This document shows, piece by piece, positions 1-58,141 of a stretch of 64,000 nucleotides of DNA. The notes under the pieces are model-generated. The model ran no database searches, was not told where the DNA came from, and saw nothing but the letters and a program-made list of their open reading frames with translations. The DNA is taken from the NCBI GenBank assembly GCA_016858145.1, contig JAEHOE010000005.1, forward strand, positions 1,550,001 to 1,614,000, read 5' to 3'. Positions within the stretch are counted from its first letter, which is position 1. Every line of letters starts with the position of its first letter. Position numbers and translations under genes: made by a program. Origin of the DNA: Edaphochlamys debaryana (Eukaryota; Chlorophyta; Chlorophyceae; Chlamydomonadales).

Positions 1-3000
1 AACTGCGCCTCATGGGCAATGCCACACCCTTCCACAAACCCAAAGCGCTCACCTCCGCCCTGCGCCTGCGCTGCCGTCTGCCCCACGGCCACCACGGGCC
101 GCCCCTGGGCCGGGTCGCTCCACTCCGCCGGGTAGTTGAGCTCGAGGATGCCGAAACCGCCGTTGTACCTCTCCACAGCGCCCCGGTCGAAGGCCCGGGC
201 CGCCTCCTCCGGCGTGTTCCAGGTGCCCAGGTGCTTGATCGTACGGTCGATTCGGATCTGCGCGCGGTAGCGGCCGCTGAGCTCCTTCCGGACGCCCTGG
301 GGCAGGCCGGACGGGCTGCGGGCGCCCTGGGCGGTGGTGGTCGCTGGAGGCTGGGGTAGGGCAGCCTGCGCCGCTGGCCTAGCCGGCTCCCCAGGTGACG
401 CTCGTGCAAGGCCAGTTGCAGGCCGGGCGGGAGTGGGCTGCGGCGGCTTCTGCACCCGCGGTGGAGCGGTCGTGGTCTGCGGCTGCTGAGACTTCTCAGG
501 TGCCTCCGCCTCTGGGTTGCGGGCGCGGGAAGTGGGTGCGGCTGTCGTGGCAACGCGTGGTGCCGGCGCCAGGCCAGGGCGTGCAGCTGGCAGCACCGGG
601 GCCAAGTTCGGCCTGGATGGGCCCGCTGCCCGCCCCGCAGACACTGGCTGAGCGGCGGCCGCCGGCCCCTGCCCAGAAGCCCGCGCGGGCTGGGGCTGCG
701 TCTGCGGCTGTGTCTGCGGCTGCCTGCCCCCGTTCGCCTGCGGTGCTGCGGGGCCCGGTTGCTGCTGCTGTGGTGTCGGTGCGTGTGGCACCACAGCGCT
801 TGGCGGTGCGGCTTGCGTCGCAGCGGCAGTGCCTGAAGGCTGAGCGCTGCCGCCCTCCGCGGCCCCAGCGGGGCCCTGGGCGCCAGGAGCCTGCACCCCG
901 CTGGCCCCTCCAGCAGCAGGGGGGCCCAGCGCCGCCTGCGCCTGCGCCCCGCTGCCCTCTTCGGAGCCCCGCCTCGAGCCAGCGGCGCCGGAAGCCGCCG
1001 CCCCTCTTGTCCCCGCTCCGGGCCCCGAAGCACTACCCCCGGCTGCGGCGGGGCGGGGCACCCGGGACACCACAGGCCGCCCCATGACTGGGTCACTCCA
1101 CTCTCCCGGATAGTTAATCAGCAAGCTGGCGCTTTCACCTGCATTGTATTTCTCCACTGCTGCCCGGTCGTGCACCCGGGCGGCCTGCTCTGGCGTGTCC
1201 CACGTCCCGAGGTACCTCAGCTTGTCGCCACGAGTGATGCGGGCAAAGTAGCGCCCGCTGCGCTCCCTGCCCACCCCACGGGGCAGCCGGGAAGGGCCGG
1301 GCGAGTCCCGGGCAGTAGTTTGCCGCTGTGGTTGAGGCTGGGGCTCGGGCTGGGGCGGCTGGGGCTGGGGCTGGGGCGACTGGGCCCGCGGCGGCCTGGT
1401 CTGGGCCTCCGCCATCAACACCTCTGGCGCTGAGCCTTGCGCGGGGTCCTGCGGCTGGGGCTGGCCAGCCCGCAGCGCCTCCGCCTGCGGTGATGCGCCC
1501 AGCGCCCCGCCTTCAGGAGCTCGTGGCGGCGGCTCCTGAGCACGTGGCGGCGGCTCCTGCTCCTGCTGAGAGCCGGCGGGCTGTGGCTGCGTGAAGTGCT
1601 CCGGTGCCTCCGACGGATGGCTCCGTGCCGCTGCCTCGTGCGGCGGGGGGTGGGAGCGAGTCCTGCATGCACCGGCCGAGTGTGCCCCAGGCCCTGGCAG
1701 GGCTGTGGCTTGCTGCGAGCCCCGGGGCAGCTGCTCGTGCTCGGCCGTGCGTGCTGAAGCGAGCTGGGCCCCCAGGCGAGACACCTCAGCCTCCAGCCGC
1801 TGCCTCTCCTCCGAGTCCCTAGCCGCCTGGGCCTGGGCCGTGCGCAATTGCTCTGTGAGCTCCTGCGCCTCGTCATGGGCTGCGTCCTCCCGCTGTTGGA
1901 GGCCGGCGCAAGCCGCCTCGGCCAGTGCCGCCCTGCCCTCAGCCTCCGCGGCCCGCGCCTCTGCTGCTGCCGCCCTGCCCTCGGTCTCCACAGCCCGCGC
2001 GTCGGCAGCCGTGGCCCTGGCCTCAGCCGCCGAGGCCCGCTCCTCGGCAGCCGGCAGCCGGGCTTGGAGCTGCTGCTTCTCCTCCGCTTCCGAAGCCGCC
2101 TGCGCTACCGCTGACTGCAGCTGAGCCATAAGCTCATGCGCACGCCCCGCCAAAGCCTGGGCGGCGTCCACCTGCTGTTGAAGCGTCGTGCAGGTCGCCT
2201 CAGCCGCCTCAGCCCGCTGCTTCGCCCCATGCAGCTGGGCTTGCAGTCGCCCGCACTCCCCCACGCCATGCGCCGCCTGGACCTGGGCGGCGCGCAGCTG
2301 CTCCGTCAGCTGCTGCGCCCGTTGCTGCCATTCCCACGCGGTGTTCACCTGCCCTTGCATGCTGACACCAGCCGCCTCCGACACTGCTGCCCTGCTCTCG
2401 ACCTCCGCAGCCCGGGATTCTGCCGCCGCCGCCCTGGCCTCGGCCTCCGCAGCCCGCGCCTCTGCTGCTGCCGTCTGGCACTGAGCAGCCGCCAGCTCCT
2501 GTTGCATTTGGGCCTGCGCCGCGGTCCCGGCTGCCCGGAGGCCGCCCGCCACGGCTGCGAGCTCCGCGGCCTCTGCCGCCCGCTGCTCCGCCGCCCGTAG
2601 CCTGGCTTGCAGGCCTTCCATCGCCGCCGCTTGCGCCTGCGACTCCGCAGCCCTCCACCGCTCCGCCGCTTGCAGCTGCGTCCGGAGCTCCTGAGCGCAG
2701 GCCTCGGACTCCCGTGCCTGCGCCTCCGCCTCCTGCCGCCGCTGCTCCTCCGCCTGCCACGACCGCTCCGCGAGGGCCGCCTGCTGGACGGCTTCATTGA
2801 ACCGCATATGGAGATCCCGAAAGCGGGCATTGGCCGCAATCAGGGCCTCCCCGGCCCCCGCCGCCTCCGCTGCGGCGCCCGTCTGAGCGCCGCTGAGCCC
2901 ATGCTGCGCCGGAAGGTCTCGCCTTGCGACCTCCTCCCAGAACTCCGCATCCCGTTGCGCATCCTGCTGTGCCAGCTGCACATCGTGCGACCCTGCGGCC

Positions 3001-5388
3001 CTAGCTGCGTCCGCCCAGGCGCCGTGGCTGCCGCTGCCTTCTCTAGAGCGTGAGAGGCCCACCGTAGCGCTGCTAGGGCCGTCCGCGCCGCCGGCGCTCG
3101 CGGTGGCCACGGCCATGGCGGCGGCCAGCTCCCTCACATCCGGGGCGTCCGGGGAAGCGCCGGCGCTGCGTGCGGCAACGCAGAGGTGAGGAGACGTCAG
3201 GGCTGATGTGGGTCAGAACTAGACCGGGTTGTAGCAATCTCCCGCATCCCGAGCGAGTTCCCTCCATCCCCTTCCCGATCCCTCTCAAGATTAAAGGCCT
3301 ACAGCCCATACCCCACGCACCCGCGCCCCTCGCTCTCCCGCCGCTCGCCGCTCGCGGCCTGTACCGCCGCCGACGCGCCGCCCCCCGAGCCCCGCAGGCC
3401 CCGCACTGCCAGCAACACGCGTTGACGCCACTCCGCGGTGAGCAGCGTGGGGTCCAGCAGAGCGGAGGCCAGGCCCCGACGGAGGGCGTCAACCACGATC
3501 GGATCGGGTGTGGGGGAGGCCGCGAAGCAGCCCTGCGGCAGTCGGTAAGGGGCGTAAGGGAGGCGAAACGCGCCAGCGCGTGACGAGGGCTGAGGCGAGG
3601 CTGCGCGAAGGTGGGATGAGGGGCAGTGCAGGGAAATGCAGGGCTCGTGGGCAGGCGCTGTGCAGTGAACACTATTGCCCCTGCTGCCCCTCGCCCTGTG
3701 CCCTTCATCAACCCCACATCTTATAGCTCAGACCCTCCTGCCAGTGATCCCGCACGCACCTTTTCTGCCAGCTCCGTCAGCGCCGGCAGCACCCGTGTGA
3801 TGAGGTGCTTCCGCTCCGCCACCACCGCCAGCGCCGCCGCCACATGCGCCGCCAGGTTGGGGGGCGGCGGCTGCCCCGGGCCGGCGCGGGCGGCGCACCG
3901 CAGCGGCTCCAGCAGCCAGCGCAGCTGCGCCTCCGCCTGCTCCGCGCGGCGGTGGCGGAAGGGGAGCAGCAGCTGGTGAGTGCTGGCCTCGGGCACACCT
4001 GGGCGGGGAAGAAGAGGGCACGCGCAGGGAGGCCGAGGTCAGGTATCACTAAGGAGTGCAGTCAGTGCATTGCTGCGGTGCTACACGCAACCGCCCCAGC
4101 CACCAGAGTGCGGTCCACAGCTCACTCTCACCCCTAGGGGCGAGGTCAGACATGAGTAAGGAGTGTAGTCAGTGCATTGCAGCGGTGCTACACCCGCCAC
4201 CGCGACCGCCCCAACCACCGAGTGCGGTCCACAGCTCACTCTTACCTCTGCTGCCCCACAGCTCACAGCTCACTCACAGTACCGCTATCGCTACCGCTAC
4301 CGCCCCAACCGCTCACCGGGCGCCCTTGGGGCGTAGTCACCGGTCAGGAGGATGATGGCGTCCTCCGCCAGAGTGACGGCCGCCAGGCGGACGCGGGCGT
4401 CAGGGTGCGCCTGGCACCGGGCCAGGGCGTCCGCCTGCAGCTGCCGCACTGCCTCCCATGCGCCAGAGACGCCGGCCTGCGTGGGCTGCGAAGGGATGAG
4501 GAGGGGAGGTGGAGGCGGCTAAGGCTTGGAGGAGAACATCGAAGTGGGTCGGGTGGGCCAGGGCGAGGGCAAGGGCGAGGGCGGGGACGGGCTATGGGCC
4601 AGAGCACCCACTCCGCCGCCGCCTGCTGCTGCTTCCCTGAGACATCCCGCAACCCCCACACAAGTGGTGAGGTCCCTTGGCGCTGCCAGAGTTCGGCTGC
4701 TCTTCAGTCCCTACGTCAGGCCGTCCCCAAGCATGCCCCGTTGCATGACGAACGGCAACAGAGCCGCGCCCATCAACAACCAGTGTCGTACAGGCACATG
4801 CCGTACAGTCGGCGCACCTTTGAAGCTAGCAAGGCCGCGGAGCTTTGGAGCACCACCCCCATTGCCAGCACCGCCTCTGCGACCACCTCGGCGGAGGCAT
4901 CCCCCAGCAGTGCGGCCAGGCAGGCGGCGCTGAGCTCAAGACTCGTCACGCTCGTGTGCTGTGCAGCCAGGCGAGCACAGAATGATGCCGCATGGCGGCG
5001 AACCGTGGGAGAGTGGTCCACCTGTGGGGGGCGGAGCGGGGTTCAGGCGAAGCATGGCGAGGATGGGCGGGGCAGGCCTTGGACCGGGTGAGGGGCGCAC
5101 CCGGCGAATCATGCACACCTGCAGCTGCTTCAAGACGTCTGGTAGCCAAGTAGCCAGCAAAGCCTCGGGGCACGGCCTCGCGCCGGCCAAGGCATTATCA
5201 AGCGCTTGAAGCAACCCGGTGAGCGCCGCAACCTGGAGACGCAAGCAATGCATATAACATGGCAGTTTTACATGAGCAAACTGAGGCAACTGCAGCCGGC
5301 GACAGACCTTGGCCAATTCTCCATAGGCAGCTGTCACAGCAGTAAACAGGCTCGCAAGCTTGTCATCTTGCCTAACGGCAATGTCCAT
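1..5388 (-). CDS. Symplekin-like N-terminal domain fused to coiled coil and two AP2 domains (3' end off the left edge)
   Basis: Predicted exons: 5388-5308, 5232-5119, 5021-4818, 4485-4317, 3998-3760, 3532-3321, and 3165 to beyond base 1; phases agree at every junction. Residues 1-340 resemble in order and spacing the symplekin/Pta1 N-terminal HEAT domain (DUF3453), a scaffold of the mRNA cleavage/polyadenylation machinery: ALLATWLPDVLKQLQ, TVRRHAASF, then DARVRLAAVTLAEDAIILL, and DALRRGLASALLDP followed by EWRQRVLLA. The last exon stays open for over 1000 codons: a linker, an Ala/Glu/Gln coiled coil (about residues 450-860), an AP2 domain at bases 1090-1295 (RLPRGV, LGTWDTPEQAARVHDRAAV) and a second at 110-315 (GLPQGV, LGTWNTPEEAARAFDRGAV). 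The coil and AP2 parts match the neighbouring AP2 genes. The start is the first in-frame ATG after an upstream TGA. The fusion is read directly from the sequence; the symplekin assignment is from memory of the family and needs an HMM search. Confidence 0.72.
4034..4250. repeat. Tandem 108 bp duplication inside an intron
   Basis: Two adjacent copies start gaggtcag and share the core agtcagtgcattgc, followed by gcggtgctacac and gtgcggtccacagctcact. They lie in the intron between exons 4 and 5 of the symplekin/AP2 fusion gene. The corresponding intron of copy B lacks them, so the expansion is younger than the gene duplication or was lost in B. Confidence 0.75.
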
Positions 5389-5493
5389 GGCGACAGACCG
5401 CAGCTTGGCCTCATTCAAGGCACGGCCGCGCCCGAGTTGTCGCCGTCCTCCGCTGGGAGAGCTGGGGAGACTGCATCAGTGCAAAGCGATGTC

Positions 5494-5501
5494 AACTTAT
5501 A
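5494..5501 (-). promoter_or_regulatory. TATA-like element upstream of the symplekin/AP2 fusion gene
   Basis: On the minus strand TATAAGTT lies about 110 bases upstream of the chosen ATG, in a locally AT-richer stretch. The same element occurs at the equivalent place in copy B (near 8637-8644). It is only a motif match; the transcription start is not known. Confidence 0.3.
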
Positions 5502-5973
5502 AACTATACAGAGTGAAGTTTGATGTATGCGGGCAAGCGCTCGTCAGTCGTTGCCGGTCGTTAACCAGAAACTTGTCCGGGACGAACGGCGCTTCTCCGG
5601 AACGCCCGCTGCGCTTGCCAGCGCAAGTGATGTGGCTAGCATCAAGGGCGTGTCTGCGGGCGTCCGAGCTTGTTGTTGTCAGGGCGCATGCCACGCCAAA
5701 CCCATCGGGGGGAAGACACGGGTCTGAACACTTGCACGCCGCCGAGGTGCCGCTGCAGTGCAGAGCAGGCTCAGCAGTTAGGATTGCTCCTTCTCAGGCG
5801 ATAGAGTGGCGGCACGACACACTAGCACGAGAACCAGCAGGAGACCAGGAATGGGCAGCGGGAGCAGGAGCGGGAACGGGAGCGAGGGCCATCGCGGGTA
5901 GACATGCCCGGCACTCTTCCTTGTTGCACCAACGAGTCAGGCCCGCTTTCCACGCCAACCAAGACCATGGCTT

Positions 5974-8530
5974 TCATGGGCATGGCCTACTGGCTGGGCC
6001 GCCGACGCTGACCGTGCACGCTACTTGCTGTTGCCCAGGACTGCCCCCGGCACCAGCGGCGCCGCCAGACACTGGCCATGCCGCTGGGTCCGGACACCGT
6101 GGGGGCCCCGGATTTTGGTCACCTGCGGCACCCGTCTGAGCGCCGTTGAGCCCATGCTGCGCCGGAAGGTCTCGCTTTGCGACCTCCTCCCAGAACTCCG
6201 CATCCCGTTGCGCATCCTGCTGTGCCAGCTGCACATCGTGCGACCCTGCGGCCCTAGCTGCGTCCGCCCAGGCCCCGTGGCTGCCGCTGCCTTCTCTAGA
6301 GCGTGAGAGGCCCACCGTAGCACTGCTAGGGCCGTCCGCGCCGCCGGCGCTCGCAGTGGCCATGGCCAAGGCAGCGGCCAGCTCCCTCACGTCCGGGGCT
6401 TCCGGGGAAGCGCCGGCGCTGCGTGCGGCAAAGCAGAGGTGAGGCGGCGTCAGGGCTGATGTGGGTCAGAACTAGACCGGGCCGTAGCAATCCCCCGTCC
6501 GTCCATGCACCCTTCTCGATCACTCTCACACCTCAGAGCCTACAACCCATACCCCACGCACCCGCGCCCCTCGCTCTCCCGCAGCTCGCCGCTCGCGGCC
6601 TGTACCGCCGCCGACGCGCCACCTCCCGAGCCCCGCAGGCCCCGCACTGCCAGCAACACGCGTTGACGCCACTCCGCGGTGAGCAGCGTGGGGTCCAGCA
6701 GAGCGGAGGCCAGGCCTTGACGGAGGGCGTCAACCACGATCGGATCGGGCGTGGGCGAGGCCGCAAAGCAGCCCTGGGGCAGTCGGTAAGGGGCGTAAGG
6801 GAGGCGAAGCGCGTCAGCGCGTGACGAGGGCTGAGGCGAGGCTGCGCGAAGGTGGGATGAGGGGCAGTGCAGTGCAGGACAGGACAGGAGCCGTGATAAC
6901 GCGAGTCAGAGGTTCAGAGGTCAGAGGTCAGAGGGTCCTGCGCCCAATGATATGTTTTCCTCCACGACTCAGCCATCCCGCATGCACCCGTTCGGGTGCC
7001 GGAGCCTGCCTCCCTGCGCCCACCAACACCCCCTTCTGAAGTTCGGGCCATATCGCCAGTGATCCCGCACGCACCTTTTCTGCCAGCTCCGTCAGCGCCG
7101 GCAGCACCCGTGTGATGAGGTGCTTCCGCTCCGCCACCACCGCCAGCGCCGCCGCCACATGCGCCGCCAGGTTAGGGGGCGGCGGCTGCCCCGGGCCGGC
7201 GCGGGCGGCGCACCGCAGCGGCTCCAGCAGCCAGCGCAGCTGCGCCTCCGCCTGCTCAACGCGGCGGTGGCGGAAGGGGAGCAGCAGCTGGTGAGTGCTG
7301 GCCTCGGGCACACCTGTGCGAAGAAGAAGAGGGCACGCGCAGGAAGGGCACCGGTACGCAGAGTCAGTGTGTGGTTCGCGCTGACCTAGATAACGGCAAA
7401 AAGGGTCGGTACGCGTCGCTATGCCCTGCCTCCGTCACCGTCCCATGCGATGCTCACCGGGCGCCCTTGGGGCGTAGTCACCGGTCAGGAGGATGATGGC
7501 GTCCTCCGCCAGAGTGACGGCCGCCAGGCGGACGCGGGCGTCAGGGTGCGCCTGGCACCGGGCCAGGGCGTCCGCCTGCAGCTGCCGCACCGCCTCCCAT
7601 GCGCCAGAGACGCCGGCGTGCGTGGGCTGCGAAAGGATTAGAATGGGGGGTGGAGGCGGCTAAGGCTTGGAGGAGGACATCGAAGTGGGTCGGGTGGGCC
7701 AGGGCGAGGGTGAGGACGGGCTATGGGCCAGAGCACCCAATCCGCCGCCGCCTGCTGCTGCTTCCCTGGGACATCCCCCAACCCCAACAAGCGACTGTGG
7801 TGAGGCCCCTTGGCGCTGCCAGAGTGCGGGTGCTCTGCTGTCCCTACGCGTCGTTGGCCCCAAGCAGGCCCCGTGGTCAGACGAGCCGAGCCGACAACCA
7901 GCCGGTGCCGTACAGGGACATGCCGTACAGTTGGCGCACCTTAAGGCTAGCAGGGCCGAGGAGCTTTGGAGCACCACCGCCGTTGCCAGCACCGCCTCTG
8001 CGACCACCTCGGCGGAAGCATCCCTCAGCAATTCGGCCAGGCAGGCGGCGCTGAGCTCAAGGCTCGCCACGCCCGTATGCTGTGCAGCCAGGCGAGCACA
8101 GAAGGATGCCGCATTGCGGCGAACCGTTGGAGACGGGTCCACCTGTGGGGGGCGGAGCGGGGATCATGGCGAGGATGGGTGGGAGGTACCGGTATCCAGG
8201 GCAGGCCTTGGACCGGGGACCGCCCCTCAGGGGCGTGTGCACCCGATAGTTGGTGCGCACCTGGAGCTCCTGCAAGACGTCTGGTAGCCAAGTAGCCAGC
8301 AAAGCCTCGGGGCATGGCCTCGCGCCGGCGAAGGCGACGTGAAGGGCATGAAGCAACCCGGTGAGGGCCGCAACCTGGAGACGCAAGTATTGCATATAAC
8401 GTGGCAGCTTTACACAATGAAACTAAGGCAACTGCAGTAGGCGACAGACCTTGGCCAAGTCTCAATGCGCAGCTGTCACCGCCGCAAATAGGCTCGCGAG
8501 CTTGTCGTCCTGCCTAACGGCAACTTCCAT
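5974..8530 (-). pseudogene. Broken copy B of the symplekin-like 5' half
   Basis: All six symplekin-like exons and the first part of the seventh can be aligned with copy A, but the reading frame is damaged. The first exon (ATG at 8530) has an in-frame TGA at 8464-8462 where copy A reads Tyr-Gly-Glu. The end of the third exon is one base shorter (ttaagg against tttgaagc around 7940), which shifts the splice phase. The seventh exon leaves homology after the residues GAQTGAA and ends at a TGA in the duplicated flank. Exons 4-6 are otherwise intact (for example RWLLEPLRCAARAGPG). It may still be transcribed because the promoter region is duplicated, but it cannot make the fusion protein. Confidence 0.8.
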
Positions 8531-9261
8531 GGCGATAGACCGCAGTTTAGCCTCATTCAAGGCACGGCCGCGCCCGAGTTGTCGCCGTCCTCCGCTGGGA
8601 GAGCTGGGGAGACTGCATCAGTGCAAAGCGATGTCAACTTATAAACTTTACAGAGTGAAGTTTGGTGTATGCGGGCAAGCGTCGTCAGTCGTTGCCGGAC
8701 GTTAACCAGAAACTTGTCCGGGACGATTGGCGCTTCTCCGGAACGCCCGCTGCGCTTGCCAGCGCAAGTGATGTGGCTAGCATCGAGGGACCGAGGGGTC
8801 TGCGGGCGTCCGAGCTTACTGTTGTTGCAGGGCGCATGTCATGCCAAACCCATCGGGGGGAAGTCTCGGGTCCGAACCATCGGCACGCCGCCGATGTGCC
8901 GCTGCAGTGCAGAGCAGGCTCAGCAGTTAGGATTGCTCCTTCTCAGGCGACAGGGTGGCGGCACGACACACTAGCACGAGGACCAGCAGGAGACCAGGAA
9001 TGGGCAGCGGGAGCATGAGCGGGAACGGGAGCGTGGGCCATCGCGGGTAGACATGCCCGGCCCTCTACCTTGTTGCACCAACGAGTTAGGCCCGCTTTCC
9101 ACGCCAACCAAGACCATCGCTTTCATGGGTATGGCCTTCTGGCTGGGCCGCCGACGCTGACCGTGCACGCTACTTGCTGTTGCCCAGGACTGCCCCCGGC
9201 ACCAGCGGCGCCGCCAGACACTGGCCATGCCGCTGGGTCCGGACACCGTGGAGGCCCCGGA
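6124..9261. repeat. Tandem duplication, copy B (3.14 kb)
   Basis: Second unit of the tandem duplication. It keeps the presumed original 5' flank on the right and is cut at the same 10-mer on the left, so its last exon runs into the 5' flank of copy A instead of the coiled coil. About 270 bases of 5' flank (8870-9261), ending in a run shared with 5730-6123, are well conserved between the units. Confidence 0.9.
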
Positions 9262-9868
9262 TGCGGCACCCAAAGTAGTTGCAGAGTAGTTGCCGGCAGT
9301 GCACATGGACGGGGGCACACACAGCCGGTTCCCGACACAGACAGAGGTTCATTGCTGCTACCGTACTTCCGACACCAAGCAGGTGCTAGCTAGGACCACA
9401 CGTTGAACACAGCTTGGGCTCAGAGCAGACCGGCGCATGATGCCAGCGCAGACGAGACACACCTGAAGCTCAGACCCGAGCAGCCGACCTTATGGCTTAT
9501 GCTCTCCTGCTACTCTGGAAACCATTAGGAAGCCGTGGCCTTGCATCCTGCCTACAGCCCCCCACCTACCAACCCCAGCTCTCTGGAGCTTTGCGGGGGT
9601 GACGGGGCGCCACATACAGCACACGTTCCATGCATGCATGCTAGAGCCCGACGGAAACTGTTCAGCTCGAGCCGGGAAGTCCCAACCATGGCCGTCCGCC
9701 ATTCCCACGCAAACCAAACGGAGGTGCACCCTCGGCACACGAGTAGGCCGGCCGTGGCCAAACGTGTCCAGGACCAAAAGCATGCTGTCCGCCCAACGAG
9801 TATCGGTCCAGCTTATGACAACCCTCACCACTGCCCGTACGCACGATGCGGGCATCCACAAACTCTTT
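9262..9868. other. Gene-free spacer
   Basis: This lies between the end of the tandem duplication and the 3' end of the first PHD/AP2 gene. I see no conserved coding motif on either strand; it is probably the 3' untranslated and intergenic sequence of the minus-strand gene to its right. Confidence 0.5.
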
Positions 9869-12800
9869 CTACCGGTCTGACCCAAGCCCCGCCAGCCCCG
9901 CCACGCCAGCCCTGCCCTCCATACCCAGAGGGTGTCCAGCCTGCGCCGCCGTTGCGCTCCCCGGGGCAGGTGCGGATGACAGCCCCGCCACGACTCCGTA
10001 GTCGGCCGGTGGCCCTTGGTCCCACACCCCCAGCTGCAGCGCCATCACTCCCCCACCGCCCCCCAGGCCTGGGGCCCAGGGAGCGGCGGTCCGCTGCGCC
10101 CCCAGAGGTATGACTTGGGACACCGCCCGTGGGCCGCCGCCCAAGTCCCGGTGTGGCAGTGCGCCCAGCCACAAGGCACGAGAGGATGGGCCCAAGGCGG
10201 TGGCCGCTGGGTCCTGGGTCCCCCAGTCCTCCGCAGCTTCAAGGTCCGGGCCCTGGGCACCAGCCGCCTGCGCCCCGCTGACCCCCTCCAAGCCCTCCAT
10301 CGGCTGTGGGCCGCTGCCCTCCTCGGCGCCCAGCCCCGTGCCGGCAGCGCTGGGAGCCGCCGCCGGGGGTGCCGCCCCTCCGCCCCCCGCCGCGGGCTGA
10401 GGCACCCGGGGCACCACGGGCCGTACCCGCGGGTCGCTCCACTCCGAGGGGAAGTTGAGCTGCAGCTGCCTCGAGCTCAGCCCCTCGTTGTGCCGCTGCA
10501 CGGCGGCGCGGCCGAACGCCCGGGCCGCCTCCTCGGGTGTATCAAAGGTCCCCAGCGTCGTGGTCTTGCTCTGTAACCACATGGCCGCCCGGAACCGGCC
10601 ACCGGCTGCACGGGTGACGCCCAGCAGGGGCAGCTCACGAGTGTCTGCCGGGGCCAAAGGGGGTTGCAGGGCATACATCAGGACGCCAATCTTCGCCTGG
10701 TGCCATCCAGCCCTACCAACTTCGCTCGCGGTCGCGGGAGGCAGACGTGGTTGGATGGGCCACACATGAGCAGAGATCAAGCCTGGAGCGTGACTCAAGT
10801 GGCTTGAGCATGGCCGTCACCCTTCAGCGGGCCGCACCAATGCCTCTCGGGCACAGCCCAGCCCAGCCATTCCTTCCCACGACTGCCACTTACCGGCCGC
10901 GAGCGCTTGCGGTTCAGTGTCCTCCGCAAGCCCATCGGGGCCCTGGGCGCCAGGAGCAGGGGGGCCCAGCGCCACCTGCGCCTGCGCGCCGCTGCCCCCC
11001 TCAGAGCCCCGCCCAGAGCCAGCAGCGCGGGGCCGCGTGCGAGGTTCGCTACACTCCGCCGCCGGGTTGGTCGCTCCCCAGCGGGGCTCCCGCTGGGGCC
11101 GGCCGCCCCTCTGTCCCTCCCCCACCGCCGGTACTGGTCCACTCTGCGGCCCCAGCTGCGGGGCTATGAGGGTTGCTTGCTCCTGCGCCTGCTGTGGCCA
11201 CAGCTCTTGCTCCCGTGGGAGCGGAGTCCGTGGCTGCGCCCCGCCTGTCCCTTGCAGCCGCACGACCTCTTGCTGGAGCCTATTCTTCTCGGCCAGCAGC
11301 ACTCTGCTGATCTCCGTAGAACTCTCGTTGATACGTGCGCACTCCTGAAACAGGGTCTCCCACTGCCTCCCCTCGACCTGCAGCTCAGCGATCTGTGCCT
11401 CCAGACGCTGCTTCTCTTGAGCATCCCGCTCCATCCTGTCGAGGGCCGCGATCAGCAGTGCCTTCTGCGCACTGCCCTCCGCCTCCGCCGCCTGGGCACG
11501 GGCGTGAGCAGCATCCGCATCCGCCCTCAGCAGGACAGCGGCGGCGCCAGAGGCGGGGGCGGCGGCGGCGGCGGCCTCCGCCTCCTTCCTGCTCTGCTCC
11601 AGCTCCCGCCGTGCCTCCGCCTCGGCGGCTTGAGCGGCCTCCACATCCGCCCTCAGCTGGGCGGCGGCGGCGTCAGCAGCGGCCGCAGCGGTAGCGGCGG
11701 CGACGGCGGCGGCGGCAGCAGCAGTGGCCTCCGCCTCCTTCCTGCTCTGCTCCAGCTCTCGCCGTGCCTCTGCCTCGGCGGCTTGGGCGGCCTCTACATC
11801 CGCCCTCAGCTGGGCGGCGGCGGCGTCAGCAGCGGCCGCAGCGGTAGCGGCGGCGACGGCGGTGGCGGCGGCGGCCTCCGCCTCCTTCCTGCTCTGCTCC
11901 AGCTCCCGCCGTGCCTCCGCCTCGGCGACTTGAGCGGCCTCCACATCCGCCCTCAGCTGGGCGGCGGCGGCGTCAGCAGCGGCCGCAGCGGTAGCGGCGG
12001 CGACGGCGGTGGCGGCAGCAGCAGTGGCCTCCGCCTCCTTCCTGCTCTGCTCCAGCTCTCGCCGTGCCTCTGCCTCGGCGACTTGAGCGGCCTCCACATC
12101 CGCCCTCAGCTGGGCGGCGGCGGCGATGGCAGCGGCGGCAGCAGAGGCGTCAGAGGCGGCGGCGGCAGCAGCAGTGGCCTCCGCCTCCTTCCTGCTCTGC
12201 TCCAGCTCTCGCCGTGCCACCGCCTCGGCGGCTTGGGCGGCCTCCAGATCCGACCTTAGCTGCGCGGCGACGGCGGCAGCGGTCTCCGCCTCCCCCTTGC
12301 TCTGCTCCAGCTGTCGCCTCGCTTTTGCTTTGGCTTCTTTCGCGGCTGCCAGTTTCGCTTGCAGCTTGGCGGCGGCAGCGGCAGCGGCTGCGGCTGCTGC
12401 CTCCGCCTCGTTCCTGCTCTGCTCCAGCTCCCGCCGCGCCTCAGCCTCGGCTGACGTGGCAGCCGCCAGATCCACCCTCAGCGTGGCCTCCCGCCCCTCA
12501 GCCGCCCGCCACTTCTCCTTTGCCTCCCCCGCTGCCCGCTGCAGCCATTGCAGTTCTTGCTCCATCTGGTTCCCCGCCAACGCAGGGTTGCGCTGGTTTG
12601 CCTTGTTATACAAGTCTGCCACCTGAAGCCCGGACAGCAGGCTTCTCATCCCTGCCGCTCGCGCCTGCACCTCCTCAGCCCGCCGCCGCTCCGCCGCTTG
12701 CAGCTGCGCCCGGAGCTCCTCACCGCACGCCTCCGCCTTTCGTGCCTGCGCCTCCGCCTGCCGCCGCCGCTGCTTCTCCGCCTGCCGCCGCCGCTCCTTG

Positions 12801-13710
12801 GCAGCCGCCCGCCCCTCTGCCGCAGCGAGCTGCGCACGGAGCTCGTTCAGCTGGGCTTCAGCCTCGGTCGTCAGCGCCTCGCCAGACCCTGCCTCCTCGC
12901 TGGGCGGGGCCTGTCGCCGGGCCTCCGGCATGAGCGCATCCGCCCCGACCCCGGGGCCCCAGGAGCCCCTACCGGTAGCATTTTGGGAGCGTTTTGCTGG
13001 AGGGCCAGCGCTCGGTGGGTCTCCAGTCTCTGCCGCAGCGCCCGTAGGCCCTGCAGGTGGGGCGGGCCGCTTGCGTGCATCCTGGGCCGGGTGCTTGCTG
13101 TCGAGCTTGCCCCGGAGGTCCCTCCGGAACTTCACCCTGTGCCTGGGCTGCTGCGAAGGCGGCTCCGTGGAGGGCCCCGCGCCGCTGCTGCCACCGCCGC
13201 CGCCCCTGCCACCGCTCACTGGTACCAGGCCCCAGGCCCGAGCGCGGATGCCGGCGGCGGCGTTGGACGACTGGGGGCCGCCATGCACCAAGTCCACCAC
13301 GTCCTGATCGTACTTCTTCACGGTCGCGAGGAAGCCGGCGGCCGTGTGGTGCAGGCAGGGGTCGGGGCTGTCCTTGTCGAAGCCGCAGAAGAAGAGCTTG
13401 GCATCCGAGGGCACGCCCGCACAGCTGGGGTGGCACCACCGGTGGCAGCTGTTCAGAGGCGGGACCGCGGGGGGGGGGAGGGTAGGTACTTATGCAAGAA
13501 CCCATTAAATGTATACCAAGAAGGCCATGCCCGTCACCTATGTCAACTCCTCAGCCTCGGCTTCCGGCCCGTAGCCCATCACGCCTACTGGACAGGACAG
13601 CTGTACAGCTTGCCATTCTTGCGACGCCATCGGTAGTGGCCGCACTGAATTAGCTCGGCATCGTTACTTTGCCCAGTGCCCTTGCAGAGGTAGCACTGAT
13701 GTTCGGCCAT
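9869..13710 (-). CDS. PHD-like zinc finger, coiled coil and one AP2 domain protein
   Basis: Exon 1 starts at the ATG at 13710 and encodes the first half of a PHD-like finger (HQCYLCK, then LIQCGHY). Its donor is not resolved: no canonical GT gives the phase needed by exon 2. Exon 2 (13448-10894) supplies the second half (CHRWCHPSCAGV, then FFC), a conserved patch (YDQDVVDLVHGG, IRARAWGLVP), a basic linker, and a coiled coil of over 500 residues with a 51-residue repeat. Exon 3 (10644-9869, entered in phase 1) carries one AP2 domain (GVTRAAGGRFRAAM, LGTFDTPEEAARAFGRAAV, LQLNFPSEW) and a Gly/Ala/Pro tail. PHD fingers usually read histone tails and AP2 domains bind DNA, so a chromatin or transcription role is inferred. 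The nearest relative is the gene at 16217-21684. Confidence 0.75.
11573..12271. repeat. Coding minisatellite, about 153 bp unit, five copies
   Basis: Units begin at 11573, 11726, 11873, 12026 and 12176, with lengths of 153, 147, 153 and 150 bases, always multiples of three. Each encodes about 51 residues of heptad-like coil built on QLRADVEAAQ, EARRELEQSRKEAEA and a poly-Ala segment. The repeat lengthens the coiled coil of the PHD/AP2 protein without breaking the frame. Confidence 0.9.
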
Positions 13711-16216: not shown

Positions 16217-19200
16217 TCAAAGTGCTGCCCGGCCGCCCCCCGCTGCGTGCAAAGGATCCCGGGGCTCCATCGGCCGACCCCTGTCCAGGTCGCTCCACTC
16301 CGAGGGGTAGTTGAGCTCTCGAAGGGCGAGCCCGGCGTTGTAGTCGTTCACGGCGGCCGTATCATACAGCTTGCCTGCCTCCTCCGGCGTCGAGCGGGTG
16401 CCGAGGCGCACGCGCTTCCCACCACGCAGGATGTGGGCGCTGAAGCCGCCGCTGGGATCCTCACTGACCCCTCGCGGCAGGCTGTACTGGGTGGGGGTGC
16501 CCTGAGCGGTGGCCGCAACAGCCGCCAGCACTGCATGGTCGCCTGGTACCCCTCGAGCCCCCAGCGCCCTGACCAGCACCGGTGCCGCCATAGGCTGTGC
16601 GTGACCGCCCTCTGCGCCCCCCACTGCAAGGCCCTGCATCTCCCAAGCGGGACCCTGGCCCCCAGGAGCCTGGGCCCCGCTGGCCCCTCCAGCAGCAGCG
16701 GGGCCCAGCGCTGCCTGCATCTGCGCCCCGCTGCCCCTCTCGAGGCCCTCCATCGGCTGTGGGCCGCTGCCCTCCTCAGAGCCCTGCCCCGATCCGGCAG
16801 CTCCGGGAGCCGCCGCCGGGGAGGGCTCGACCCCGCTGCCCTCCACCGCGGGCTGAGGCGTCCGGGGCAGCACGGGCCGCCCCTGGGCCGGGTCGCTCCA
16901 CTCGGAAGGGAAGTTGAGCTGCAGCGGCTTCGAGCCCAGCCCTTCGTTGTGCCGCTGCACGGCAGCCCGGTCGTACGCCCGGGCCGCCTCCTTGGGGGTA
17001 TCGTTGGTCCCCAGGTATCTCAAGGTGCCTTCCCAAAAGATCCGGGCCCTGTAGCGGCCGTAGCCATCCCGTAAGACCCCTCGGGGCAGGCCGGACAGTC
17101 CAACACCGGCGTGGGATGTGCCCGGGGCCCCGCCGACATCCGCCCCGCCACCTGTGCCGGCGTCGGCGCCGCGGTTGTTGGCCGCATGCGCCGAGCCCCG
17201 GGCAACTCCACCTGTGGTAGGAAGAGTGGGGGCGGAGGGCGAGAGGGCCGGACGAGGACACTTGACCACGAGCAGGTGAAGGTGGCTGAGAGGCGTGAGC
17301 ACCAGCATACCCTGCCCTTACACTGCAGTACCCCCCCTGGCTGCTGGGGCGCTGGGCGGGGGCCGGAGGCGGGCTGGGGGCCGAGCTAGTCAGCAGGCAC
17401 ACCGCCCTCTCGCAACCCTGCCATGCACCGAGCGGCTGGGCTTTTCAGCACTCACCCGCCTGCGCCGCCACTGCCACGCCCGCGGCAGGGGCGGCCGCGA
17501 GCCCCCCCATGCCGCCGAATGCGCCCGGTGGCCCTTGGTCCCACACCCCCGGCTGCAGCAGCACGACGGCCTCACCGCCCCCGAGGCCGGGGGCCCCGGG
17601 CGCCGCGGTCCGCTGCGCCCCCAGAGGTATGACTCGGGGCGCCGCCCGTGGGCCGCCACCCATGTCCCGGTGCGGCAGTGCGCCCAGCCACAAGGCACGA
17701 GAGGATGGGCCCAAGGCGGCGGCCGCTGGGGCCTGGGTCCCGGAATCCTCTGCAGCCTCAAGTTCAGGCCCCGGGGCGCCAGCCGCCTGCGCCCCGCTGC
17801 CCCCCTCGAGGCCCTCCATCGGCTGCGGGCCGCTGCCCTCCTCGGCGCCCAGCCCCGAGCGGAGAGCGCCGGGAGCCGCCACCAGAGGTGCCGCCTCGCT
17901 GCCCTGCACCGCGGGATGAGACCTTCGAGGCATCACGGGCCGCCCCTGGGCAGGGTCGCTCCACTCCGAGGGGTAGTTGAGCTGCAGCTTGGGGCCCCCG
18001 CCCGCATTGTATCGCTCCACGGCGGCGCGGTCGAATGCCCGGCCTGCCTCCTCCGGCGTGTCCCAGGTGCCGGGGTGCCTCTGCTTCCCGTCCGCCTGCA
18101 TTTGGCCCTGGTAGCGTCCGCTCGGCAACTGCTTGACCCCCCGGGGCAGGCCGGACAGGCCGAGGCCGGCGTGGGAGGTGCCGGGCGCCCCGCCAGCCTC
18201 CGCCCTGCCGCCTGCGCCCCCGTCGCCGCCTCGGGTGGGGTCCGTATGCTCCATGCACCCTGTGGTCAAGGAGAACGGCGAAGGCACGTGTCTCAGGTAC
18301 GAAAGACAGTGGAGAGTTGACAGTTGCGGGGAAGGGCGCAGACTGCGAGGGAAGGAGGCCGCAGAGCAGCGTGCAAGGCTCTGCATCAAACAACCTCACC
18401 TCGCCCTGCCCCTGAAGTGGGCAGCAGCACCACGGGTCGCACATGGGGGTCAATCCACTCCGAGGGGAAGTTGAACTGCAGCCTGCCGCCCTCACTGTCA
18501 TTGTATTGCTCCACGGCTGCACGGTCGAACGCCCGGGCCGCCTTCTTGGGGGTATCGTGTGTCCGCAGGTACTCCCTTCTTCGCCCACCAGATGTCGCGT
18601 ACACGCCCCGGGGCAGCTGTTGGTTGCCTGCACGGGCCGAGAGGAGGGTTCACGGCATGAAACCTTGCCCTGAAGCCATATATATGCCTTGACGGATCAC
18701 GCCCAGGAGCAGCTCTCGCACACCTGCGTAGAGTGGTGCATGTGGCCTGGCTATTGCCGCCATCGGACCCCATCAGTCCCTGTCCCCATGTCCATGCTTG
18801 CCCCGTTCAGTCGTCCCAAACATGCCCACGTGTGGACCACACACCAGTCGTCCGCATTTGCGCTCCGTCGCCCTGCGAGAGCCCGCCGGGGCCCTCAGCG
18901 CCGGGGGCCTCACTCCCGCCGGCCCTTCTAGCAGCAGGGGGGCCCAGCGCCGCCTGCGCCTGCGCCCCACTGCCCCCCTCGAAGCCTGGCTGCAAGCCAG
19001 CCGCCGCCAGGGCCGCCCCTGCGCTGCCCCGCGTTGCGGGCTGGGGCACCCGGGGCACCACGGGCCGCCCCTGGGCCGGGTCGCTCCACTCTGAGGACGC
19101 ATCGAGCGGCAGCACGAAGGGTCCGGAATAGGACCGTTCCCCGTGTGCACTGGTGAAGGCCCCCCCGGAAGTGTTCCAGGTGCCGACACGTTGCAGCTGA

Positions 19201-21684
19201 GACCGACCGCCCAGCAGCGCCGCCTCCGCCAGCCGTGCTACCAGCACTGGTCCACCCAACGGCGGGTTCTGCCAGGCTGCTAGGGTCGCCTGGTCCTGCT
19301 CCTGCGGCCGCACTCTCTCCTGGCGAAGAGGGTGGTCTGCTAGCCCCCCAGTGGCGGGTGGCTGCGCCCCGCCGGTCCCTTCCAGCTGCGCTAGCTTCTG
19401 TTGGAGATGGTCGATTTTAGCCAGCAGTTTGTCGTTGAGTTGTGCGGTCTTCTGCCAGCCGGCATCCACCCGTTCCTGCAGATGCTCCTTCTCCTGCATG
19501 ACCTGCCGCAGCTGCTGCTGCAGGGCGCCCACCGCAGCGGCGTGCTGCTCGCCTGCCGCCGCCAGCTCTTGCTCGGCCTCCTCCCGTTGCCGCTGCGCCG
19601 CCGCCAGCTGCTGTTGCAGGGAGGCCACCGCAGCGGCGTGCTGCACGCCTGCCGCCGCCAGCTCTTGCTCGGCCTCCTCCCGTTGCCGCTGCGCCGCTGC
19701 CAGCTGCTCCTGCAGGGCGCCCACCGCAGCGGCGTGCTGCACGCCTGCCGCCGCCAGCTGTTGCTCGGACTCCTCCCGCTGCCGCTGCGCCGCCGCCAGC
19801 TGCTGTTGCAGGGAGGCCACCGCAGCGGCGTGCTGCACGCCTGCCGCCGCCAGCTCTTGCTCGGCCTCCTCCCGCTGCCGCTGCGCCGCCGCCAGCTGCT
19901 CCTGCAGGGCGCCCACCGCAGCCACCTGCCCTGCCTGGGCGACCTCCAGCTCTGCCTCCAGCTGCGCCTGCTGCCTGGCAGCAGCCTTGGCGGCCGCCTC
20001 TGCCCCCTGCTTAACCTGTCCCAGCTCCTTCCGGGCTGCAGCCTCCCCTGCCTCGGCCTTCTGCCGACGTTGCGCCTCCATGTCCGCCGAGCGGCTTGCC
20101 TCAGCCGCCTGATGCTGCAGGTCCTCCAGCTGCCTCTTAAGCCCGGGCACAGCGGCCGCCCTGTCTTGCTCCCGGGCCAGGGCGGCCTTGAGGGAGCGGA
20201 CCTCCTTTTCCAGTTGCCCAGCCTCCTCCCATGCCTGGGCGGCAGCATCAGCAGCAACTTCGGCGCGCCATTCATAGCGGGTCTTGCGCTCGCCAGCCTC
20301 CGACAGCTGTGCCTTCAGCCTGTCAACGTCCGCACGCATCGCAGCTGCCTGGGCTTCTGCCGCTGCCGCCTTGCGCCCGGCGTCCGCCGCCTGGCGCTCT
20401 GCGGCTGCCTGCCGCTGTTGCAGCTGGGGCACCTCGGCCGCCGCCCGCTGCCGGGCTTCCGTCGCCTGCGCCAGGGCTGCCGCCGCCTGCTCCTGTGCCG
20501 CCCTCAGCTGCGCGGTGGCAGTGTCCGCCGCCCGCTTCTGTGCGGCGTCTGCCTTCTCGGCGTGGTCCTTGCATGCCGCCTCTGCCTCCAGCCGCCGCTG
20601 CTCCTCCGCTTGCAGCTGCGTCCGGAGTTCCTGGGCGATTGTCTCCGCCTCCCTTGCCCGCGCCTTTGCCTGCCGCCGCCGCTGCTTCTCCGCCTTCCGT
20701 GAAAGCTCCGCGGCAGCCGCCCGCTCTTCAACCGTAGCGAGCTGTGCTCGAAGCTCATCTAGTTGAGCTTGGGCCGCGGTCAGCGCCTCCCCGGGCACTG
20801 CCGCCTCGCTCGGCGCGGCATGCGGCTTCGACACATCCCTGGCGGCCATTCGCTGGCGTTTCGCTGGAGGGTCAGCGCCCTGTAGGTCGCCAGGCCCTGC
20901 CGCAGCGCCCGGGGGGGCCGCGGGCGGGGCAAGACGTATCATCGATCCCTGAGCCGGGAACTCGCTGTCTAGTATTCCCCCCTGGTAACCCGCACGGAAT
21001 TCCACCTTGCGCCGAGGCTGCTGCGGAGGCGCCGCCGTGGCGGGACCCGCGCCGCTGCTGCCACCGCCGCTGCCCTCAGCCGGCACCAGCCCGCGGGCCC
21101 GCGCGCGGACGCTGTGGTGAACAGGCTTGGTGCGATCATGAACGAAGTCCACCACGGGTTGGTCGTACCGGTGCACGTAGTCGAGGAAGTTGGCGGCCGT
21201 GTGCGCCCCATCGTTGCCGCAGAAGAAGAATTCGGCATCTAGCGGCACGCCCGCGCAGCTGGGGTGGCACCACCGGTCACAGCTGCTCAGGGATGGAGGT
21301 GGAGGGAAGGGACACACGCGGGCTTGGGGTGGAGGGAAGCCGCGCTGGGGTTGTGGGATGGCCTTACGCAGGGGGTGCCGGCAACGAGAGTACGAGACGA
21401 GTGTGCTACCCTCTCCCCTTCCCTCCCAAAGCACAGCCCTCAGCCACCCAGCCCCCATCACGCGCTCACGGGACTGGGCATTGACTGTTGACGCTGGGGA
21501 GGGGCGAAGGGGTGGGGACAAGGCGGACATGGGTGCAGCAGTGCGAGGAGCGAAAGTGTGCTTTGACCCACGCTTACCATGGATTTGGCTTGTAAAAGTA
21601 ATGTCCGCACCGGATGAGCCTCCCGTTGTTGCCCTTTCGCCCGTGATACTTGCAGATGTAGCATTGATGAGTTTTAGGACCCAT
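16217..21684 (-). CDS. PHD-like zinc finger, coiled coil and five AP2 domains protein (1523 aa)
   Basis: Exons: 21684-21578, 21282-18845, 18627-18400, 18259-17456, 17211-16217; phases fit throughout (first junction phase 2, all others phase 1). Exon 1 gives HQCYICK and LIRCGHY; exon 2 opens with CDRWCHPSCAGV and FFFCG, completing a PHD-like finger whose third and fourth ligands are separated by about ten extra residues. Then come YDQPVVDFVH, RARARGLVP, a linker, and a coiled coil of about 500 residues with a 32-residue repeat. Exon 2 ends in a degenerate AP2 (19085-19200: VGTWNTSGGAF, SSEWSDPAQGRPVVP). Exons 3 and 4 carry one AP2 each; exon 5 carries two (RAYDRAAVQRHNEG, and LGTRSTPEEAGKLYDTAAV). 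A regulatory DNA/chromatin role is inferred from the domains. The stop may be premature. Confidence 0.78.
19531..19940. repeat. Coding minisatellite, 96 bp unit, about 4.3 copies
   Basis: Units start at 19531, 19627, 19723, 19819 and 19915, exactly 96 bases apart. Each encodes 32 residues of coiled coil built on AQRQREEAEQELAAAG and VQHAAAVASLQQQL. Successive units alternate between two slightly different versions, which suggests amplification of a two-unit block. Confidence 0.9.
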
Positions 21685-57800: not shown

Positions 57801-58141
57801 CAGGGGGAAGCCTGCAGGGCTCTGCGCGGGTGGAGGACAGCAGGGCCGGTGGGAGCGGCGATGGCGGCGGAAGCGGCAAGGCGGAGGGGGCCGGCGGGGT
57901 CCTCGGTCCCTCCCACGCCGGCCTCGGCCTGTCTGGCCTGCCCCGGGGGGTCAGGAGGCAGAGCAGCGGCCGCTACGAGGCCCATATTCGCCGGGATGCG
58001 AAGATGAGGTCCCTGGGCACCTGGGACACGCCGGAGGAGGCAGCCCGGGTGTACGACCGCGCTGCCGTGAAGAAGTTCAATGCCGGCAAGGGCGGCAGGC
58101 TGCAGCTCAACTTCCCCTCGGAATGGAGCGACCCGGCCTAG
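54881..58141 (+). CDS. Coiled coil and AP2 domains protein, paralogue of the gene to its left (900 aa)
   Basis: Exons: 54881-56972, 57379-57651, 57804-58141, introns in phase 1. The first ATG of the open frame is used; an upstream exon is likely because the frame is open without an ATG back to about 54660. The coiled coil (AQVTELRAQLAAAEERAAVV) is nearly identical to that at 50125-50660. Exon 1 also contains half an AP2 domain (RCVQRYNEPQ, LQLNLPSAWSD; 56600-56700) between two linker modules. Exon 2 is a full AP2 domain (GVTRQAGGRLQVSIRVQG, NPEEAARAFDRAAVQRHNEG), and exon 3 another (GLSGLPRGVRRQSSGRYEAH, DTPEEAARVYDRAAVKKFN). The stop is TAG at DPA*GRPVVPW, where sister genes read DPAQGRPVVPR, so the C-terminal tail has been cut by a CAG-to-TAG change. 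Confidence 0.75.

Follow-up and report, generated by a model that had tools for sequence, protein, structure and literature searches.

A symplekin N-terminal domain joined in phase to a coiled-coil/AP2-repeat gene in Edaphochlamys debaryana

Introduction

Tandem duplication and exon shuffling are a known route to chimaeric genes and new domain combinations. Gene fusions involving AP2/ERF have reportedly been found in sesame. In human symplekin, Lys185 is what we take to be a contact with Ssu72. According to extracts of PMC8887125, human CPSF retains cleavage in vitro after deletion of the symplekin N-terminal domain, and a human symplekin construct without the N-terminal part, starting from residue 341, does not bind SSU72. 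Extracts of PMC3538716 give a single symplekin gene for C. reinhardtii. Here we describe a gene of E. debaryana in which the symplekin N-terminal HEAT domain (340 residues, six exons) is in phase with a coiled-coil/AP2 exon.

Results and Discussion

Anatomy of the fusion gene

Exons 1–7 of the gene all lie on the minus strand of the window (the whole stretch of 64,000 nucleotides analysed) and have GT-AG borders (Table 1). The 3321/3165 junction is in phase 2 and maintains the reading frame, and the exon 6 donor matches intron 6 of the symplekin gene on contig C183 of the same genome in both position and phase. The modelled 3′ end lies at about −7572, i.e. 7.6 kb outside the window start. Our gene model comprises 16 exons and encodes 3455 residues with 13 AP2-like repeats; its 3455-codon frame crosses 15 GT-AG introns, exons 8–16 having been picked by eye to keep the frame. 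The earlier note had described six symplekin-like exons spliced in phase into an exon with a coil and two AP2 domains. The phase agrees with our analysis but the number of AP2 domains does not, as a further 11 lie beyond the window, as far as −6856. Neither Rfam nor tRNA scanning gave any match in the window.

Table 1. Features of the fusion gene, its tandem copy and the neighbouring cluster genes (window positions).
Feature	Position	Strand	Remarks
Exon 1, symplekin NTD	5308..5388	-	Putative start ATG 5388; open frame, GT donor; aligns with C183 exon 1
Exon 2, symplekin NTD	5119..5232	-	GT-AG, phase 0 as C183; 58% identity to C183 exon 2
Exon 3, symplekin NTD	4818..5021	-	GT-AG, C183 phase kept; 57% identity
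Exon 4, symplekin NTD	4317..4485	-	GT-AG, phase 1 as C183; 54% identity
Exon 5, symplekin NTD	3760..3998	-	GT-AG; 49% identity to C183 exon 5
Exon 6, symplekin NTD end (residue 340)	3321..3532	-	Phase 2 donor; 41% identity to C183
Exon 7	53..3165	-	Linker of ~100 codons, coiled coil, first two AP2-like domains; open frame
AP2-like domain 1	1056..1286	-	PF00847 23.0 bits (cut-off 33.3); in profile matching solved AP2/ERF proteins
AP2-like domain 2	90..305	-	From tblastn family search; alone without Pfam match
Duplication unit B (5′ flank and exons 1 to 7′)	2871..6113	-	Self-blast pieces 89–98% identical to unit A
Duplication unit A (tandem copy)	6123..9262	-	TGA in exon 1, 1-bp deletion in exon 3
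Cluster gene 2	10400..13710 (approximate)	-	PHD-like module, coil, AP2; front end differs from fusion gene
Cluster gene 3	16253..21684 (approximate)	-	PHD-like module, coil, several AP2-like domains
Cluster gene 4	49796..52653 (approximate)	+	Linker, coil, AP2; linker related to exon 7
Cluster gene 5	54760..58168 (approximate)	+	Linker, coil, AP2

Identity and origin of the symplekin domain

The likeness to PF11935 proposed in the earlier note was present but weak. The N-terminus of our own model alone scored 20.3 bits, below the 25-bit cut-off, and Cnd1 scored 24.2 bits on it, also below its own cut-off. On the whole protein of the deposited model HYH03_002302, which has the same fusion, PF11935 reached 28.9 bits, above the cut-off, with no individual part of it reaching E 0.01. 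A genome-wide family search for PF11935 gave no match, but as it was equally blank in all 14 control genomes we disregarded it. A separate full-length symplekin gene, for which the earlier note had suggested a search, was found on C183. Across the whole domain, the fused part is 51% identical to this gene, which is the firm evidence of symplekin identity. The spliced N-terminus of C183 symplekin matched PF11935 (38.4 bits) and a rough join of its C-terminal open stretches matched PF12295 (49.6 bits), both above cut-off, and its domain is 70% identical to a Volvox protein named Symplekin. In HYH03_002302, the C-terminal domain PF12295 was not found at E 0.01, while Volvox symplekin scored 154.5 bits in the same scan. 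Profiles built from the algal domain pair and trio matched solved symplekins (best 2.2e-6), but no symplekin was found when solved structures were searched with either algal domain as a single sequence. Designed armadillo proteins made up 4 of the 11 matches and ranked above symplekin in the profile searches; we rejected them as short repeat-like matches, expected by chance for a repeat protein.

The fused domain and C183 symplekin have six intron positions and phases in common, the C183 borders having been read by eye. Together with the 51% identity, this marks the fused part as a genomic paralogue that has diverged. It is a genomic copy rather than a retrocopy, as the six parental introns of the domain were kept.

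At 103 columns of the alignment the fusion departs from a residue common to C183 and Volvox, while C183 alone differs at 9 and Volvox alone at 36. This indicates that the fused domain diverged fast, as judged from the alignment. In other words, 36 columns are common to the fusion and C183 only and 9 to the fusion and Volvox only. This points to a duplication within this lineage, after rather than before the split from Volvox, although a slow C183 lineage would mimic the pattern.

Several other resemblances were discarded. That of exon 7 to C183 symplekin exon 7 was equalled by 175 of 200 shuffles. Five weak symplekin-like rows elsewhere in the cluster (26.6–32.4% identity, E 9e-5 to 6e-4) lay in Ala-rich stretches and were discounted as low complexity, and so were 5 of the 23 genome matches (E 0.08–1.6). 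The 5′ flank of the fusion gene gave no match to the region upstream of C183 symplekin, and genome-wide it matched only itself, the tandem copy and a 52-bp stretch on C47.

The AP2 part and its gene cluster

When seven repeats were scanned singly with PF00847, five matched (19.8–32.1 bits) and none reached the 33.3-bit cut-off. Pfam scans of the long exon and of the HYH03_002302 protein found no AP2 match. However, a profile of ten repeats matched solved AP2/ERF proteins (best 3.6e-16). We then predicted the structure of a gene 5 repeat aligned with nine other window repeats, including two of the fusion gene, and obtained an AP2-like order of strand-strand-strand-helix (pLDDT 87). The nine best Foldseek matches were plant AP2/ERF chains (query TM 0.61–0.78, E 6e-4 to 1.6e-2), three of them at E ≤ 0.001. 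The predicted model thus supports an AP2 fold for the cluster repeats.

The acceptor of the fusion belongs to a 200-kb AP2 cluster: at least 69 of at least 83 AP2-like matches were on C5. The coil and AP2 parts of exon 7 match the cluster genes, and part of its linker DNA matches genes 5 and 4. The gene 5 linker aligned with exon 7 bases 154–272 (119 bases) over 125 columns (68.8%, E 2e-6), and the gene 4 linker aligned with part of the same stretch, at the corresponding place (62 bp, 74%, E 3e-5). The PHD-like modules of genes 2 and 3 scored 22.8 and 16.8 bits with PF00628 (cut-off 24). This suggests that the front ends in this algal cluster are exchangeable, being PHD-like in some members and a symplekin domain in one. 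The suggestion of the earlier note that a symplekin 5′ end was captured by the AP2 family is therefore well supported: a full-length symplekin exists elsewhere in the genome, the intron positions and phases of the fused part are those of that gene, and the AP2-coil part belongs to the local cluster, with exon 7 DNA related to the linkers of genes 5 and 4.

The Lys185 site and a possible role in 3′ processing

Such a protein could tether Ssu72 (a CTD phosphatase) or other 3′-processing factors to AP2-bound DNA and so link termination or phosphatase activity to particular genes. The genome does have an Ssu72 gene (all three matches on C22 and over the cut-off, best 2.2e-14), the AP2 fold is supported, and the 340-residue module corresponds to the part that human symplekin needs for SSU72 binding, as far as the extracts of PMC8887125 go. 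However, both copies of exon 4 have Thr (Thr171 in unit B) where human symplekin has Lys185 and where fly, Volvox and C183 also have K, and a second lysine common to the same four (VVK or VIK) is Ala in the fusion. Loss of the Lys185 equivalent argues against a simple 3′-processing tether and points instead to a HEAT interaction module taken up through exon shuffling. The fast divergence (103 fusion-only columns against 9 and 36) and the lack of the symplekin C-terminal domain in the HYH03_002302 protein also speak against a tether. The idea in the earlier note that 3′ processing factors would be linked to DNA sites is weakened, because the fusion carries only the N-terminal domain, dispensable for in vitro cleavage in the same extracts (PMC8887125), and the Lys185 equivalent is lost. 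We consider such a tether, of Ssu72 or other 3′-processing factors, unlikely.

Tandem duplication, constraint and order of events

A tandem duplication of about 3.2 kb has left a partly broken second copy, unit A, upstream of the fusion gene. In unit A, exons 4–7′ have neither indel nor stop, and the unit ends at CAG|GT, implied as a donor by HYH03_002302. The splice sites and frame at the exon 6/7 junction are intact in both copies. Between units A and B, exons 4–7 showed 24 substitutions, 17 of them at third positions, and no indels in 915 nt. Across introns 3–6, the 810 aligned nt contained 191 substitutions and 8 indel events; segments replaced in introns 4 and 5 inflate these distances. 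For exons 4–7, dS was 0.061 and dN 0.014 (dN/dS ~0.23); for exons 1–3, dS was 0.234 and dN/dS 0.34. Nonsynonymous changes were depleted in both parts (p = 0.0004 and 0.0025, respectively). Since exons 4–7 have no indel and a low dN/dS, the joined frame looks constrained. Conversion could be behind part of the low dS in exons 4–7 compared with exons 1–3.

These values bear on whether the gene is a young chimaera without selected function, a duplication by-product of an unstable AP2 cluster that is kept or lost by chance. The nonsense codon and frameshift already in the tandem copy, in-frame stops in other cluster members (gene 5 and C271) and the quick divergence of unit B would all fit that account. 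But it sits poorly with the dN/dS ratios, the absence of indels, the depletion of nonsynonymous changes and the long frame over 15 introns, even with exons 8–16 picked by eye. We regard it as improbable.

That the fusion is older than the tandem duplication is supported but not certain from these comparisons. The tandem copy also has the exon 7 stretch that matches the linkers of genes 5 and 4, so the fusion would have come first. At the protein level, the score of the duplicated exon 7 part against gene 4 was reached by 1 of 200 shuffles, and the scores against gene 5, gene 2, gene 3 and C271 by 41, 14, 16 and 89, respectively. The claim is thus drawn mainly from the DNA linker match, because the protein comparison clearly beats shuffles only for gene 4.

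The deposited model and the exon 6/7 join

HYH03_002302, found in a search in which the best 7985 candidates were scored, is an automatic BRAKER model from a pipeline that used RNA-seq hints, as described in extracts of PMC8226300. Its 5′ end differs from that of our model: it begins in copy A and enters copy B within exon 2 at 5138, and its protein has the symplekin domain twice. Two of the implied joins are doubtful, an out-of-frame start in copy A exon 3 and an acceptor within exon 2. These joins would suit an annotation artefact, with the symplekin-like exons and the AP2 gene being separate transcription units and the 3321/3165 join, supported by sequence and the automatic model only, never used. 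However, the junction splice sites and frame are conserved in both copies, the exon 6–7 join is present in both units of the hint-aided model, and exon 7 up to the duplication border had 7 of its 11 changes at third positions and no indels. An artefact is quite unlikely. It is likewise rather doubtful that both tandem units are exons of one gene, as HYH03_002302 implies, encoding a protein with two HEAT arms, a coil and at least 12 AP2 domains that would recruit a Pol II CTD or 3′-end factor to AP2-bound loci. Our search found no description of a DNA-addressed transcription-termination or phosphatase factor of such a kind. Least probable is that the fused domain is a decoy that competes for the partners of true symplekin, because it has lost the residue taken to contact Ssu72 and the AP2 part would be left without explanation. 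Plants do have partial symplekin isoforms (extracts of PMC3538716), and partial 3′-processing proteins can compete, as yeast Syc1 does with Ysh1 (extracts of a review).

Proposed origin

With the anatomy, homology, common intron positions and phases and constraint on exons 4–7 established, we think it probable on the whole that a symplekin 5′ duplicate was joined to a coil/AP2 cluster gene and its HEAT arm repurposed. Exons 1–6 of the algal symplekin gene, encoding the N-terminal HEAT domain, would have been duplicated genomically and put ahead of a member of the amplified coiled-coil/AP2-repeat cluster. The join would lie at or near an intron, in the place occupied in two neighbours by a PHD-like front end. 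The product would be a nuclear DNA-binding protein: its HEAT solenoid would form an N-terminal arm for protein interactions, its coil a rod for oligomerisation and its 13 AP2-like repeats the array that binds DNA. Given the lost Lys185 equivalent and the fast divergence of the domain, the arm probably no longer partners Ssu72 in the usual way. Most likely, the arm serves as a recruiting surface for the AP2 factor and does not bring the 3′-processing complex to DNA.

This is a case of exon shuffling whose donor gene, acceptor family and probable sequence of events can all be seen in one genome, and in which a core mRNA 3′-processing domain is joined to DNA-binding domains. Should the joined protein be produced and bind a 3′-end or CTD factor, it would act as a natural DNA-targeted termination factor; otherwise, it illustrates how a domain of this sort can be repurposed after losing its original contact.

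Comparison with known systems

The fused domain resembles symplekin/Pta1 (PF11935), as represented by C183, in its nearly equal length, its 51% identity and its six intron positions and phases. But the fusion ends with this domain, has no detected Symplekin_C, has lost the Lys185 equivalent and has a coil and AP2 repeats attached. The AP2-like repeats share three strands and a helix, and the profile match of 3.6e-16, with AP2/ERF proteins of solved structure (ERF1, ERF96, TEM1 and WRI1). However, the fusion has 13 diverged repeats, singly under the Pfam cut-off, rather than the one or two of the solved proteins found. Cluster genes 2 and 3 are similar to the fusion gene in their coil and AP2 parts, cluster and strand, but carry a PHD-like zinc module at the front in place of the symplekin domain. 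Arabidopsis At5g27595/At5g27590 is likewise a second symplekin gene and does not code for a single complete protein, but unlike for the E. debaryana gene, no AP2 fusion is described for it in the extracts of PMC3538716. Compared with known chimaeric genes, and with the AP2/ERF fusions said to exist in sesame, the partner here is a domain of a core 3′-processing scaffold.

Structure of the fusion gene

The window covers bases 1550001–1614000 of contig C5. On the minus strand, the 5.4 kb at its start carry seven exons, six of them short and one longer than 3 kb, with GT-AG borders throughout and a single continuous frame, which confirms the reading in the earlier note that six symplekin-like exons are spliced in frame into a long exon. 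The frame was traced through nine further exons (exons 8–16, chosen by eye) in the adjoining 10 kb of contig C5, joined at phase-1 introns, giving a total of 16 exons and 3455 residues. A coil and two AP2 domains had been proposed behind the symplekin part; the AP2-like part held, but the number two did not, as the extended gene has thirteen AP2-like repeats.

Coordinates of the fusion gene, its tandem units, and AP2-family features (window positions unless a contig is named; negative positions lie on contig C5 beyond the window start)
Feature	Position	Observation
Fusion gene, minus strand	5388 to −7572	Stop at −7572
AP2-like repeats of fusion gene	1286 to −6856	Thirteen
Unit A (upstream tandem unit)	9262–6123	
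Unit B (fusion gene's own unit)	6113–2871	
Intron 4 of unit B	4031–4246	Local duplication of about 110 bases, 82–84% identical
Coil of cluster gene 2	11380–12250	Long repetitive Ala/Glu-rich array
PHD-like module	13710–13217	Intron-split; 22.8 bits (PHD cut-off 24)
PHD-like module	21684–21081	Intron-split; 16.8 bits (PHD cut-off 24)
AP2 repeat of cluster gene 5	57926–58168	In-frame TAG
AP2-like matches on C5	C5:1543000–1740300	Nearly all C5 matches
AP2-like matches on C100	C100:36000–231000	
Coil match on C271	C271:51055–51465	One TAG

Origin of the symplekin part

The PF11935 match proposed for the fused N-terminal domain is present, but below the 25-bit cut-off when the domain is taken alone (20.3 bits, with another HEAT family scoring somewhat higher); the whole deposited protein HYH03_002302 reaches 28.9 bits, with no single stretch at E 0.01. 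The firm evidence for the predicted symplekin identity is a second gene on another contig (C183), 51% identical to the fused domain over 331 aligned columns. This gene, found upon a search for a separate symplekin in the same genome, matches PF11935 at 38.4 bits and PF12295 at 49.6 bits (the latter on a rough join of C-terminal stretches), and shares 70% identity over the symplekin N-terminal domain with a protein of Volvox africanus that carries the name Symplekin. Identity between fused and C183 exons 1–6 is, in order, 50, 58, 57, 54, 49, and 41%. All six introns of the fused domain equal those of C183 (borders read by eye) in position and phase, including the phase-2 intron 6 at the fusion site (3321/3165). 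Profiles of these symplekin-domain proteins match the fly and human symplekin structures collinearly. Among 23 matches of an N-terminal query to the genome (141.9 Mb, 502 contigs), 14 belong to the two copies on C5, 4 to C183, and the other 5 are weak matches with E of 0.08 or above. Judged from these sequences, the fused part derives from a genomic copy of symplekin exons 1–6 that has diverged, as expected if the AP2 family captured a symplekin 5′ end, a possibility raised in the earlier note. A retrocopy or a chance resemblance is ruled out by the homology to C183 and the six introns at the same places and phases.

AP2 repeats and the gene cluster

Upon a Pfam scan of seven single AP2-like repeats, five matched PF00847 and none reached the cut-off; no AP2 match was listed in scans of longer pieces of the fusion protein. 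A ten-repeat profile matches WRI1, ERF96, AtERF1, and TEM1, and when one repeat was modelled (pLDDT 87), the nine best structural matches to its predicted fold were all plant AP2/ERF chains.

In the genome, one AP2 repeat matched at least 83 places, 69 on C5, 11 on C100, 2 on C271, and 1 on C79. The matches in the 214 kb examined form about 18 groups by our own grouping, and the only symplekin exons there, apart from low-complexity matches, are those of units A and B. A Cys-rich PHD-like module stands at the front of three AP2-coil genes (cluster genes 2 and 3, and C5:1742719). The TAG-bearing repeat of cluster gene 5 and the C271 coil match may be broken or differently spliced cluster members.

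Tandem duplication and probable order of events

Units A and B are a head-to-tail duplication, about 9 bases apart, whose end falls inside exon 7. Within the duplicated part of exon 7 (exon 7′, 296 bases compared), bases 154–272 match the linker that directly precedes the coil of cluster gene 5 (DNA, 125 columns, 68.8%, E 2e-6) and bases 154–215 match the linker of cluster gene 4 (DNA, 62 bases, 74%, E 3e-5); further DNA matches are scattered, at E 3e-4 or weaker. Out of 200 protein shuffles of the duplicated part alone, the score was reached by 1 for gene 4, 14 for gene 2, 16 for gene 3, 41 for gene 5, 89 for C271, and 185 for C183 exon 7. With the coil start added, the counts were 0 for genes 4 and 3, 4 for gene 5, 9 for gene 2, 34 for C271, and 175 for C183 exon 7. 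Because the duplicated part matches cluster linkers, mainly in the DNA comparison, copy A very likely already carried AP2-family sequence behind its symplekin exons, and the fusion would have preceded the tandem duplication. Intron 4 of copy A is 174 bases shorter than that of B.

Possible maintenance of the joined frame

Copies A and B show 24 differences in 915 sites and no indel in exons 4–7, against 191 differences in 810 aligned sites and 8 indel events in introns 3–6. Since replacement, not mutation, seems to account for parts of introns 4 and 5, exons 6 and 7 against intron 6 give the cleaner comparison (19/507 vs 27/143, p = 2e-8). By the Nei-Gojobori method, dS and dN are 0.061 and 0.014 in exons 4–7, and 0.234 and 0.080 in exons 1–3 (last 12 bases of exon 3 excluded, stop codon skipped). 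In copy A, exon 1 is interrupted by a TGA and exon 3 by a 1-base deletion; exons 4–7 of this copy are clean, as would follow from their continued use as exons, in line with HYH03_002302, or from recent conversion.

The deposited protein model

Searching proteins with a long query gave one match, the E. debaryana hypothetical protein HYH03_002302 (3569 aa), as which the fusion protein is already public; its UniRef entry has an AP2/ERF name and a PF11935 flag. The annotation pipeline for this species was BRAKER with RNA-seq, as given in PMC8226300. Among the papers listed by searches of open-licence literature, none describes this fusion, and neither AP2 nor symplekin occurs in the main text of the E. 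debaryana genome paper.

From residue 59 of our model on, the two models agree, except for one residue and two stretches (90 and 77 residues) missing from HYH03_002302, the 77-residue one being most of one AP2 repeat. The front ends differ: judged from the protein, HYH03_002302 uses exons 4–7′ of copy A (exon 7′ at 6418–6123) and continues from 6123 into exon 2 of B, entering that exon internally at 5138, with CAG/GT at the end of copy A as the implied donor. Its first residues derive from another frame of copy A exon 3, so its start is doubtful and its N-terminus is probably wrong.

Possible function of the fused domain

In the alignment to 3o2q, fly, Volvox, and C183 have Lys in the column of human Lys185 (position 176 of the chain with 9 added, as inferred from the chain lengths and the construct), and copies A and B both have Thr; a second lysine that human, fly, Volvox, and C183 have in common is Ala in the fusion. 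Lys185 of symplekin reportedly contacts Ssu72, according to a 2010 structure paper, and an Ssu72 gene is present in the E. debaryana genome. There are 103 columns in which C183 equals Volvox and the fusion differs, while C183 alone differs in 9 and Volvox alone in 36. The loss of the Lys185 equivalent, the Ala at the second lysine, and these 103 columns suggest that the fused domain now probably serves a partner other than its former one, inside a predicted DNA-binding AP2 protein. This AP2 fusion protein would probably be oligomeric.

Human symplekin without residues 1–340 keeps CPSF cleavage activity in vitro and loses SSU72 binding, and the symplekin N-terminal domain is required for activation in the histone complex, as stated in PMC8887125 and PMC7614891. 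The piece captured in E. debaryana is about this separable domain of human symplekin.
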